A DNA stretch of 48,963 nt from Helicobacter pylori PMSS1 (lineage in GTDB: Bacteria; Campylobacterota; Campylobacteria; Campylobacterales; Arcobacteraceae): assembly GCA_945883785.1 (NCBI GenBank), contig CAMCYD010000004.1, positions 1 to 48,963 on the forward strand, read 5' to 3'. The notes under the pieces are model-generated. The model made no database searches. It saw nothing but the letters and a program-made list of their open reading frames with translations, and was not told the origin of the DNA. Made by a program: the position numbers and the translations under genes. Shown here piece by piece: positions 3,740 to 16,886 of the stretch (positions are counted from its first letter, which is position 1; each line of letters opens with the position of its first letter).

Positions 3740-3804
3740 GTCATTGTGAGGAACGAAGCAATCTAAGAAATCGACTTTTGGATTGCTTCGTTCCTCACAA
3801 TGAC
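3740..3804. repeat. Dispersed palindromic (REP-like) element, copy 2
   Basis: Perfect 24-base inverted repeats (3740-3763 and 3781-3804) flank a 17-base loop. The arm contains GAGGAACGAAGCAATC and the loop resembles that of copy 1 (aagaa..cgactttt). The element sits just after purA and before the promoter of the DUF507-carA operon, so it may protect the purA 3' end or terminate transcription. Arms differ between copies, but both copies keep pairing, consistent with selection or recent spread as a hairpin. Confidence 0.88.
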
Positions 3805-3860
3805 TGCTACAAAAAAGAATTTGGCTTGAAATAACATCGATTATAAAGGAAATAATTCTT

Positions 3861-4003
3861 CATTTGAGAATAAAAACCAACACAATCATCTGATTGTGCT
3901 TAGTAGGATTGATTTTATGAAGAACTTGTTCTGAATGAAATGAAACAAAAAAATGAAGCGAGGGTTGCCTTCATTTTTGGAACAAAAAATTAAGGAGTAG
4001 AAA
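3861..4003 (+). promoter_or_regulatory. Candidate structured leader RNA, copy A (before DUF507-carA)
   Basis: Aligns with 14783-14919. Hairpin 1 is CACAATC/GATTGTG (3881-3898). Hairpin 2 is an imperfect stem at 3907-3945 closing on GAA-CTTG-TTC. The shared core GGTTGCCTTCATTTTTG lies at 3963-3979. Its CTTCATTTTT can pair upstream with AAAAATGAAG (3949-3958, 10 bp). Alternatively CCTT plus ATTTTT pair downstream with AAAAAT and AAGG (3985-3995), hiding the Shine-Dalgarno AAGGAG (3992-3997). The two folds exclude each other. A TATAAA -10 lies just upstream near 3840. No known riboswitch class is recognised. Confidence 0.6.
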
Positions 4004-4555
4004 ATGAAACTAAGAAAACAACATGCGAATTTTTTAGCTAGAAAAATAACAAAAGATATAGTAAGTAGCGATTTTATAGAGGCTAGAAAAGACAGAATGG
4101 CCATCATAGCGGAGTGCGAAAGAATCCTTCTGGAAGATATAGAAAAAGAGATAAACCTTGATGAACATGTGAATGCATTGTTAGAAAATATGGAAGATGA
4201 CATCACATTTTACAATGCAGACTTCAAGCAACTCTTTTGGATGACAAAAAAAAGATTGGCAAATGACTTTGATGTAAATCTTAACTTTGAAGATAGATTT
4301 TCAAATATTGCCCACAATATCATGGACTTTTTGTACGAAGAAGATTTTATTCATTTTACAGTTTCAGACAATCAAGTAAAAAATCTCATTTCAAATGGCA
4401 TCGCTGAATTTATCAAGGGATACGATGAAGCTGATGTTTTAGCTTATGAAAAAATCAAAAGTTATAAACGAAAACTTATCCCTGGAACTGAAGATTATGA
4501 TCTGATTTTCAAAAGACTTTATGAGGAAGAACTAATAAAAAAAGGATTGTTATAA
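4004..4555 (+). CDS. DUF507 family protein
   Basis: A 183-residue charged, mostly helical cytosolic protein of the DUF507 family, opening MKLRKQHANFLARKITKDIV. Family function is unknown. It has no signal peptide or membrane segment. It follows the structured leader with AAGGAG six bases before the ATG, and its stop overlaps the carA start (TAATG), so its translation is probably coupled to carA. The pairing with carA suggests a link to carbamoyl-phosphate or general metabolism but does not prove one. Confidence 0.85.
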   Translation: MKLRKQHANFLARKITKDIVSSDFIEARKDRMAIIAECERILLEDIEKEINLDEHVNALLENMEDDITFYNADFKQLFWMTKKRLANDFDVNLNFEDRFSNIAHNIMDFLYEEDFIHFTVSDNQVKNLISNGIAEFIKGYDEADVLAYEKIKSYKRKLIPGTEDYDLIFKRLYEEELIKKGLL

Positions 4556-5676
4556 TGGAAAAAATTTATTTATATCTTGAAAATGGAACTTTTTTAGAAG
4601 CAGACAGCTTTGGTGCTAGCGGAACTAGCGTTGGAGAAATCGTATTTAATACCTCTCTTACTGGGTATCAAGAGATTACAACAGACCCAAGTTATGCAGG
4701 ACAATTTATCACTTTTACTATGCCAGAAATCGGTAATGTTGGGGTAAACGCGGCCGATAATGAGTCAAAAACCACTTACTGCAAAGGGGTAATCGTACGA
4801 GCTTATAATGAAACATACTCAAATTTTAGAGGAGAACGAGCATTTGGTGCACTTCTCAAAGAACAAGGTGTTTTAGGTATTTGTAATATCGATACAAGAT
4901 ATCTTACGAAAATGATACGAAACGAGGGTGCTATGATGATGATAGCCTCAACTGAGATTTCAAGTGCGGAAGAACTGAAAAATATCCTAGCTTCTAGTCC
5001 ACGAATTGAAGATATCAATTACATCAATCAAGTAAGTACAAAAGAGGCTTATATCCACAAACACGGTGCTTGGAATCATTCGACACTTTCATATAACAAA
5101 GCAATTATGAGTGATAAAAAAGTAGTTGTTCTTGATTTTGGGGTAAAAAGAAATATTTTAAATGAGCTTGTAGAAGCTGGACTTGAAGTAGAAGTTATCC
5201 CAAATACATTTCAAGCTGATGATTTGATTGCTAGATTTGAAGCTGGTGATATTGGTGGAATATTCCTCAGTAATGGACCAGGTGACCCGCTTACCCTTAC
5301 AAATGAAAAAGAGCAAATTCAAAAATTAATCGACAAAAATATTCCAATGTTTGCTATTTGTCTTGGACATCAAATGTTGAGTATCGCTCATGGTCACGAT
5401 ACTTACAAACTGAAATTTGGACAACACGGTGGAAATCATCCAGTAGGAAATGAGAGTAAAACAGTAGAGATAACTGCTCAAAATCATAACTACAATGTCC
5501 CTGACAGCATCACTGAAATTGCAGATGTAACACATATCAATCTTTTTGACCAAACAATCGAGGGTGTAAGATACAAAAATAAACCGATATTTTCAGTACA
5601 ACATCACCCAGAAGCAAGTCCAGGACCACACGAAAGCAAATATATTTTCAAAAAATTTGCCGAAAGCATAAGGTAA
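4555..5676 (+). CDS. carA: Carbamoyl-phosphate synthase small (glutaminase) subunit
   Basis: Releases ammonia from glutamine and passes it to CarB for carbamoyl phosphate, the precursor of arginine and pyrimidines. The 373-residue chain has the CarA N-terminal domain (about 1-150) and a class I glutamine amidotransferase domain (about 189-373). The catalytic triad is visible as Cys269 in ICLGHQM, His351 and Glu353 in HHPEAS. The start shares a base with the DUF507 stop. carB is not in the window; instead a DUF475 membrane protein follows five bases later. The split from carB is common in this phylum. Confidence 0.97.
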   Translation: MEKIYLYLENGTFLEADSFGASGTSVGEIVFNTSLTGYQEITTDPSYAGQFITFTMPEIGNVGVNAADNESKTTYCKGVIVRAYNETYSNFRGERAFGALLKEQGVLGICNIDTRYLTKMIRNEGAMMMIASTEISSAEELKNILASSPRIEDINYINQVSTKEAYIHKHGAWNHSTLSYNKAIMSDKKVVVLDFGVKRNILNELVEAGLEVEVIPNTFQADDLIARFEAGDIGGIFLSNGPGDPLTLTNEKEQIQKLIDKNIPMFAICLGHQMLSIAHGHDTYKLKFGQHGGNHPVGNESKTVEITAQNHNYNVPDSITEIADVTHINLFDQTIEGVRYKNKPIFSVQHHPEASPGPHESKYIFKKFAESIR

Positions 5677-14782: not shown

Positions 14783-14919
14783 TTCAAGTGAAAATAAAAA
14801 TGGACACAATCTTCTGATTGTCTTTAGGATGATTTTGTATTGGATTTTATTCCATACAAAATCAAACAAAGCAAATAAAAGGTTGCCTTCATTTTTGAAA
14901 AAAAATTAAGGAGAATATC
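14783..14919 (+). promoter_or_regulatory. Candidate structured leader RNA, copy B (before DUF485-actP)
   Basis: Aligns with 3861-4003. Hairpin 1 is ACAATC-TTCT-GATTGT (14806-14821). Hairpin 2 is a perfect 10-bp stem GATTTTGTAT/ATACAAAATC (14831-14863) with an inner GGA/TCC; its sequence differs from copy A but a stem is kept. The core GGTTGCCTTCATTTTTG is at 14881-14897. CCTT (14886-14889) pairs with AAGG (14908-14911) and ATTTTT with AAAAAT, hiding the Shine-Dalgarno. A competing AAGG-TTG-CCTT hairpin (14879-14889) would free it. The ATG is at 14920. Confidence 0.6.
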
Positions 14920-15237
14920 ATGGATAAAATGTTGGTTGAAAAAATCAAAGCAAATCCGAAGTATCAAGAACTTATTGCAAAACGAGGTTCTTTTGCATTA
15001 AAACTTACCATTATTATGCTTGTAATGTATTATGCATTTATACTCGTAATTGCTTTTGATAAGTCACTTTTAGGTGTTAGTTTAAGTGGTGGAGTTACTA
15101 CTGTTGGGATTCCTGTTGGAGTTTTAATTATTGTCATCTCTTTTGCATTAACTGGAATTTACACAAATAGAGCAAATGGAGAGTTTGATGATTTAACAAA
15201 TGCCATCAAAAAAGATGTTGCAAAGGGGAGTAAATAA
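14920..15237 (+). CDS. DUF485 membrane protein (YjcH-like)
   Basis: A 105-residue inner-membrane protein with two hydrophobic segments (about 26-46 and 60-82) and a conserved N-terminal [15 protein letters not shown] pattern of the DUF485 family. In other bacteria such genes (yjcH) precede the acetate permease actP. Here the TAA stop overlaps the ATG of the symporter gene (TAATG), so the two are translated together. GGAG lies six bases before the ATG and is predicted to be masked by the leader hairpin. Confidence 0.9.
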
Positions 15238-16886
15238 TGAAGAAAATTTTATTACTTTTAACATTACTTGCAGTTAGTGTTTTTGCTGCTGGTGGAGATA
15301 TGGGAGTTGAAGGTCAAAGAGGTGTAAATATGCCTGCTATCATTATGTTTTTACTTTTTGTTGGTGCAACACTTGGTATCACATATTGGGCTGCAAAAAG
15401 AACAAAAACAGCAAAAGATTTTTATACAGCTGGTGGAGGAATCACAGGTTTCCAAAATGGTTTAGCAATTGCTGGGGATTATATGTCGGCTGCATCTTTC
15501 CTTGGTATTTCTGGAATGGTTTATATGAAAGGGTATGATGGTCTTATCTATTCTATCGGTTTCCTTGTTGGTTGGCCAATTATCCTTTTTATGGTTGCTG
15601 AACAACTTAGAAATCTTGGGAAATATACATTTGCCGATGTTGCTTCATATAGACTTGGACAAAAAGAGATTAGAACTCTAGCTGCTATTGGTTCACTTGT
15701 AACAGTTGTTTTATATCTTATCGCTCAAATGGTTGGGGCTGGTCAACTTATCAAAGTTCTTTTTGGACTTGATTATGAAGTTGCGGTTGTTTTAGTTGGT
15801 ATTTTGATGATACTTTATGTAACTTTTGGTGGTATGCTTGCAACTACTTGGGTACAAATTATTAAAGCGATTCTTTTACTTTCAGGTGCTACTTTTATGG
15901 CGTTAGCTGTTCTGTATTCATTTGATTTCTCATTTGAAAGTTTATTTGCAAAAGCGGTAGAAGTGCATGAAAAAGGTGGAGAGATTATGGCTCCAGGTGG
16001 ACTTTTAAGTGATCCTGTCTCTGCTATTTCTCTTGGACTTGCTCTTATGCTTGGAACTGCTGGTTTACCTCATATTCTTATGAGATTCTTTACAGTTGCT
16101 GATGCTAAAGAAGCTAGAAAATCTGTATTTTTTGCAACAGGTTTCATTGGATATTTCTATATCTTAACTTTTATCATCGGTTTTGGTGCTATCGTTTTAC
16201 TTACAAATAATCCTCAGTTCTTTGATGATGCTGGAAAATTAATTGGTGGAACAAATATGGCTGCTATTCACTTAAGTCAAGCTGTTGGTGGAGATATTTT
16301 CTTAGGATTTATTTCAGCAGTTGCATTTGCTACAATCTTAGCAGTTGTTTCTGGACTTACTCTTGCTGGTGCTTCTGCGGTTTCACATGATTTGTATGCA
16401 AGTGTTATTGCAAAAGGGAAAGTAGATGAAGCAAAAGAGATGAGAGTTTCTAAAATTTCTACAGTTGTACTTGGTATTGTTGCTATTGTACTTGGTATTG
16501 CATTTGAAGAACAAAATATTGCATTTATGGTTGGTCTTGCATTTGCTATCGCAGCATCTTCAAACTTCCCTGTTTTATTCTTGTCTATTTATTGGAAAAA
16601 ACTAACAACAAGAGGAGCACTTATCGGCGGAAGCTTAGGACTTGGAACAGCGATTATTCTTGTGATACTTGGACCAACAGTTTGGGTTGATACATTGAAA
16701 AATGCTGAAGCTATTTTCCCTTACAAATATCCAGCGATATTTTCTGTAACGGTTGCATTTGTTGGTATTTGGTTCTTCTCTATCACTGATAGAAGTGAAA
16801 GAGCTAGACTTGATCAAGAAGGTTTTGAGGCACAAAATATCAGATGTCAAACTGGTATTGGAGCTGATGGAGCATCTGCTCATTAA
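15237..16886 (+). CDS. actP: Sodium:solute symporter, cation/acetate symporter ActP-like
   Basis: A 549-residue sodium/solute symporter (SSS) family permease with about 13 membrane spans. As in E. coli ActP the N-terminus begins with a cleavable-looking signal ([20 protein letters not shown]). Family segments include [30 protein letters not shown] (a long motif spanning about 62-91), [12 protein letters not shown] and [10 protein letters not shown]. It probably imports acetate or another short organic acid. Located after DUF485 under the structured leader; a strong terminator follows. Substrate is inferred from family and gene pair. Confidence 0.88.

Follow-up and report, generated by a model that had tools for sequence, protein, structure and literature searches.

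A covarying leader RNA before many unrelated operons of Arcobacteraceae, with a predicted two-state fold at the Shine-Dalgarno sequence

Results

Two leaders of one family in the window

The window, by which we mean the whole stretch of 48,963 nucleotides that was analysed, carries two copies of the same structured RNA family, copy A at 3880-3997 and copy B at 14805-14913. Their parts, and the genes that follow them, are these.

3881..3898, + strand: copy A hairpin 1, CACAATC-ATCT-GATTGTG, 7 pairs; covaries, with A-U/G-C and C-G/A-U/U-A swaps that stay paired
3899..3909, + strand: copy A junction CTTAGTAGGAT; family consensus CUUUAGRN, in relatives a near-invariant single-stranded linker of both hairpins
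3910..3943, + strand: copy A hairpin 2; covariation at alignment A4 columns 47-67 (AU, GC, UA, CG)
3949..3958, + strand: copy A antisequestor arm AAAAATGAAG; complementary to 3969-3978 in all 10 bp, part of the minimum-energy fold
3963..3978, + strand: copy A core GGTTGCCTTCATTTTT, the arm common to both alternative stems
3985..3997, + strand: copy A masking arm AAAAATT and Shine-Dalgarno (SD) AAGGAG; the SD-masking helix is conserved with compensatory changes
4004..4555, + strand: DUF507 protein (PF04368), first gene 3' of copy A
4555-5676: carA, next after the DUF507 gene
14806..14821, + strand: copy B hairpin 1, ACAATC-TTCT-GATTGT
14822..14829, + strand: copy B junction CTTTAGGA
14830..14864, + strand: copy B hairpin 2, unlike that of copy A in sequence but the same in pairing
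14881..14896, + strand: copy B core GGTTGCCTTCATTTTT
14901..14913, + strand: copy B masking arm AAAAATT and SD AAGGAG
14920..15237, + strand: DUF485 protein (PF04341), first gene 3' of copy B
15237-16886: actP acetate symporter, next after the DUF485 gene

Both leaders keep one order: hairpin 1, a CUUUAG-like junction, hairpin 2, GGTTGCCTTCATTTTT, AAAAATTAAGGAG and the start codon. AAGGAG lies at 3992-3997 with its ATG at 4004 in copy A, and at 14908-14913 with its ATG at 14920 in copy B. When the window was searched for the 16-base core with zero mismatches, only these two copies were found. In each of them CCTT-c-ATTTTT pairs with AAAAAT-t-AAGG, and in copy A AAAAATGAAG (3949-3958) can pair instead with CTTCATTTTT (3969-3978) to form a perfect 10-bp stem. 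An initial annotation of this DNA had described the elements of both leaders, and all of them are present at the positions listed above; its description of a second hairpin that differs in sequence between the copies while keeping its pairing was accurate, as was its proposal that the SD can be hidden in both copies and that copy A has a flawless alternative stem.

The same annotation regarded the leader as an unrecognised RNA common to unrelated operons, and named a comparison with Rfam as one way in which this could be overturned. At the gathering threshold Rfam 15 gave no match in the window, and permissive thresholds gave weak sub-threshold matches only (best E 0.067). Among 20 related loci the leaders were likewise unmatched, the only matches being an unrelated tRNA and 5_ureB away from the leader. 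In the window and in these loci the leader thus corresponds to no Rfam family.

Just 5' of copy A, at 3740-3805, there is also a long inverted repeat, GTCATTGTGAGGAACGAAGCAATC and its complement, with 24-nt arms. It looks like a dispersed intergenic palindrome lying outside the leader.

At least 19 copies in the source genome

The assembly from which the window comes (2.65 Mb, 193 contigs) was searched throughout. A core search returned six copies with the full anatomy, the four beyond the window lying 5' of napB, panD, glnA and luxS; when the six are aligned, compensatory changes are seen to preserve the pairing of both hairpins and of the masking helix. A covariance model built from these six (R1) detected 12 copies in the genome at E < 1e-6, and a second model, built from 28 relatives (R2), added seven, making at least 19. 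Since six full-anatomy copies were found by pattern alone, followed by 12 and then seven by covariance models, chance is excluded as the source of the resemblance between the leaders, and the phenomenon is confirmed to be far larger than the first two copies suggested.

The remaining copies precede genes for enoyl-ACP reductase, trxA, cobA/cysG, carB, dnaK, an outer-membrane protein (TIGR04219), der, prs, a CdsZ-like zinc-ribbon protein, nifU, purD and lepA, and one more precedes a small thioredoxin-like gene. The latter, behind the leader at C17:26453-26572, stops after 28 codons, where its same-genus counterpart reads 77; a frameshift or an assembly error is possible.

Distribution and downstream genes

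With R2, the element was found in 80 of 104 Arcobacteraceae genomes and in 16 of 20 genera, often at 10 to 29 copies per genome and never more than 29. Searches of 399 genomes from the order and 397 from the phylum placed all strong matches (E < 1e-10) in Arcobacteraceae and weaker ones (E 1e-4 to 1e-9) in other families of the same order; among the matches listed, none lay outside the order. In an exact-pattern scan of named genomes, matching records were mostly Arcobacteraceae MAGs, and one was labelled Desulfosporosinus.

The copies have the placement of a cis-regulatory leader, nearly all of those analysed in Arcobacteraceae being in the sense strand at a fixed position 5' of genes: where an open frame follows, the start codon lies 5-10 nt past AAGGA in 141 of 149 copies. 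The downstream genes, named by reading N-termini except for a subset, are led by dnaK (10 of 155 analysed copies), with glnB at 6 of 155; others include those for ferredoxin, HIT and rubredoxin, thrC, cysK, hypA, hypB, nifD, hisA/H, folA, ispH, groEL, secF, nuoH, dnaJ and many single cases. They span chaperones, GTPases, nitrogen, carbon and sulfur metabolism, respiration and flagella, and so share no single metabolic theme. No promoter signature was found at a constant distance 5' of the element. Some single genes, such as those for ferredoxin and nifU, are preceded by leader or module copies in tandem.

Covariation of the helices

Recurrence and covariation in related genomes were the second ground on which the initial annotation could have failed, and the covariance models revealed both. 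Among 85 sequences of the GGUCCC type, 93.8% of base-pair cells are paired, against 70.7 +/- 0.6 in shuffles, these absolute percentages being somewhat favourable because the loci were chosen by the covariance models from best matches. There are 606 double-sided changes where shuffles have 170, and a covariation score of 0.600 where shuffles have 0.167; with the partners slid by 1-3 columns the score is at most 0.21. Both hairpins and the SD-masking helix far exceed the shuffled and the slid controls (four helices counted; 28 and 85 sequences), and RNAalifold, unaided, picks the SD-masking helix together with hairpin 1 and the tip of hairpin 2. The structure therefore covaries as that of a cis-regulatory leader RNA would.

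Helix by helix, double-sided changes occur at 7 of 7 pairs of hairpin 1, 7 of 7 of the hairpin 2 tip and 7 of 10 of the masking helix. All 7 pairs of the hairpin homologous to hairpin 1 of copy A covary in the 85 relatives, and every pair of the hairpin 2 tip does so in alignment A10. In this tip, G-U pairs outnumber A-C mismatches 17:2, an excess that indicates selection acting on the RNA; no such bias is seen in hairpin 1 (10:10). Platform variants such as ATTTTA/TAAAAT and ATTTTG/CAAAAT hold the masking helix by compensation, and where extra hairpins are inserted in the shared loop (the napB and lepA copies) the flanking platform arms are intact.

Conservation is mainly in pairing, and high conservation is rare among single-stranded positions. 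The CUUUAG junction hardly varies, and the base of hairpin 2 has three invariant or nearly invariant U-A pairs; junction and pairs together are likely contact points for an effector. A long-range pairing of junction with core, visible by eye in some sequences, is not conserved and was rejected.

Alternative folds around the Shine-Dalgarno sequence

Two folds are predicted for leaders of the GGUCCC type. In the open one, GGUCCC pairs with GGGACC (helix P3) and the SD is free; in the masked one, CCUUnnAAnUU pairs with AAnUUnnAAGG and the SD is buried. The two are mutually exclusive because both need the CC; a pseudoknot containing P3 and the masking helix together was rejected on steric grounds, zero loop nucleotides remaining between them. 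P3 is 95.3% paired and nearly invariant, so that its support comes from conservation and only weakly from covariation. In leaders of the window type, the predicted open fold joins an upstream arm AAUGAAGG to CCUUCAUU, which competes for CCUU; copy A has a perfect 10-bp version of this stem, and in copy B the local open state is weak (-2.4 kcal/mol), the predicted alternative there being long-range. Thus, in most copies one or the other alternative hairpin is predicted to rival the masking helix for CCUU, which is the arrangement of a translational riboswitch: mutually exclusive helices, one of which masks the SD.

According to these predictions the two states are nearly balanced. Over 154 copies the masked state differs from the open one by a median of -0.55 kcal/mol, the difference is within 3 kcal/mol in 71%, and the two energies correlate (r = 0.60). 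With 29 start regions of the window as controls, a masking helix of -5 kcal/mol or better was predicted in copy A alone.

Related modules and platforms in other families

In a second family of the order (f16; genomes of 2.1-3.0 Mb) single genomes carry as many as 11 instances of the same SD platform, CCTTCATTTTATGAAATAAAATTAAGGA, and the reversed control pattern had no match there. The platform precedes groEL, thiG, hemE, ilvC, tkt, hypA, hypB, nifU, luxS, flgD and others (names by reading), behind different upstream hairpins, with a CUUYAG junction in one subgroup. A second leader architecture was also seen in this family, consisting of a hairpin, GCTTYAGTG, a small GCC/GGC hairpin, TAGCGNAG, a further hairpin and then the same SD platform.

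Conversely, some related modules outside Arcobacteraceae lack the SD platform. A third family (f20) has the two-hairpin module before a plain SD, once in tandem 5' of nifU; in one genus (g52) of family f10, near-identical modules are scattered within longer intergenic repeats, some near flagellar genes; and in two genomes from other families of the order the spacer between 23S and 5S rRNA holds the module in antisense orientation. It follows that the recognition module can be separated from the platform. Across families, nifU, hypA, hypB, luxS and groEL are repeatedly tied to the leader.

The CUUUAG junction resembles part of the boxA sequence, UGCUCUUUAACA. We regard this as a resemblance only and set aside boxA-like antitermination, against which the antisense orientation of the rRNA copies speaks.

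Discussion

One of the main questions raised by these leaders is whether they regulate translation and, if so, in response to what. We think it probable, though well short of assured, that they are cis-acting regulated translational switches with a broad effector. The initial annotation had spoken of switch-like logic; the two-state layout around the SD does generalise beyond its two copies, and a single-metabolite ligand is unlikely given the breadth of the downstream genes, which leaves a global signal or a trans-acting binder.

Several other explanations deserve consideration. First, the leader might be constitutive, its hairpins shielding the 5' end of the mRNA or fixing a level of translation, with no regulated switching. 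This would suit downstream genes that are mostly housekeeping, functionally scattered and devoid of an apparent common ligand. A constitutive enhancer, however, would have no need of a covarying SD-masking helix with an energy-matched competing stem, nor of an upstream module kept in a specific three-part layout, and we consider this explanation unlikely.

Second, a classical riboswitch for one compound, such as glutamine, acetate or a nucleotide, would have just such an aptamer-plus-platform layout with SD sequestration, and genes of nitrogen and amino-acid metabolism do recur (glnA, glnB, carA/B, thrC, cysK, hisA/H, nifD). Yet dnaK, groEL, lepA, der, trxA, rubredoxin, luxS and napB have no common metabolite, and pairing is conserved more than the unpaired bases, whose conservation is below that of typical metabolite aptamers. 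The breadth of downstream genes thus makes a riboswitch serving a single pathway improbable, and it also tells against acetate, acetyl phosphate, glutamine and carbamoyl phosphate, all of which had been suggested as candidates for probing.

Third, a dispersed hairpin repeat of the REP or MITE kind could land in intergenic DNA and be carried along in leaders. The high copy number, the tandems before the ferredoxin gene and nifU, the near-identical scattered copies in one related genus and the antisense copies in the 23S-5S spacer all have this flavour. The Arcobacteraceae copies analysed, however, are nearly all in sense and at a fixed distance to the start codon, their stems vary from copy to copy yet stay paired, and their SD platform shows covariation with the SD. 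Near-identical copies placed without regard to the direction of genes are not the pattern in Arcobacteraceae but are partly the pattern in the one related genus. We hold a repeat origin to be very unlikely. Lastly, a simple RNA thermometer, for which the AU-rich masking helix with its conserved internal mismatch and the presence of dnaK, dnaJ and groEL might be cited, is scarcely credible, since the predicted SD accessibility of full leaders is near flat (0.25 at 5 °C to 0.27 at 42 °C), the target genes are mostly outside the heat-shock set and the covarying upstream module would be superfluous.

For a regulated translational switch, we envisage the following. Hairpin 1, the CUUUAG junction and hairpin 2 would form a recognition module, and the 3' part an expression platform, in which pairing of CCUU with the AAGG of the SD would turn the gene off, and pairing of CCUU elsewhere would free the SD and turn it on. 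With the states predicted to be near-equal in energy, a small contribution from the module could be enough to shift translation. While the family, its structure, its place before start codons and its breadth are matters of observation, we infer that the leaders switch in vivo and that an effector exists. With about 20 operons per genome standing behind such a leader, many of which are housekeeping operons, the signal would most likely be a general physiological one: the module may be read by something that reports the general state of the cell, and binding of this reader would tip the balanced platform. The reader is probably a trans-acting protein or a small molecule of wide significance, as opposed to a single-pathway metabolite.

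Having raised this possibility, we would go one step further, and more tentatively. The leader may constitute an order-wide switch regulon, built of a separable recognition part and SD platform and copied before 10-30 housekeeping operons per genome so that a single signal coordinates their translation, in the place of Hfq and CsrA; we put this forward as a possibility somewhat harder to accept than to doubt. Neither CsrA (PF02599) nor Hfq (PF17209) was detected in any of the 104 Arcobacteraceae genomes, in searches where controls were detected, and on this ground we rejected both membership of a CsrA regulon and targeting by Hfq-dependent sRNAs. As a rule, a riboswitch or a protein-bound leader governs a single pathway. 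If true, the proposal would amount to an unusual kind of global post-transcriptional control, in which one leader RNA serves dozens of unrelated housekeeping operons in bacteria lacking Hfq and CsrA. The leader family would make the coordination of translation in these bacteria directly testable, and the covariance models and the gene list offer an immediate experimental entry.

Our literature search found no published description of the element. An earlier, unnamed sighting is possible: Stav et al. 2019 (PMC6429828) analysed intergenic regions of Arcobacter sp. L and, according to the main text, obtained unnamed Arcobacter-confined motifs and four wider ones. That main text, on which our comparison is based, mentions none of luxS, carA, glnA and actP, and the motif sequences sit in the supplements. 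An earlier transcriptome study of Epsilonproteobacteria reports, for the 5' UTRs of C. jejuni, no metabolite-sensing riboswitch other than the TPP riboswitch (PMC3847290).

Three kinds of known system invite comparison with the leader described here. The first shares with it a 5' leader in which an upstream module is followed by a platform able to mask or free the SD, as in the SD-sequestering translational riboswitches preQ1-II, SAM-II and THF; unlike these, the present leader has no Rfam family, precedes dozens of unrelated genes per genome and is conserved mainly in pairing. The second is exemplified by the CsrA/RsmA regulons, which exert global post-transcriptional control and do so at the SD sites of numerous unrelated genes whose leaders are structured. 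The present leader is likewise structured and located at the SD of many unrelated genes, but the 104 genomes have no CsrA gene and GGA is not conserved in the junction. The third comprises RNA thermometers that mask the ribosome-binding site, such as FourU and ROSE. A zinc-resistance thermometer is known from Campylobacter jejuni as well (PMC7592916). Like these, the present leader has a structure predicted to mask the ribosome-binding site, in an AU-rich helix with a mismatch; unlike them, it adds a covarying upstream module and a competing open hairpin, and its predicted response to temperature is flat.
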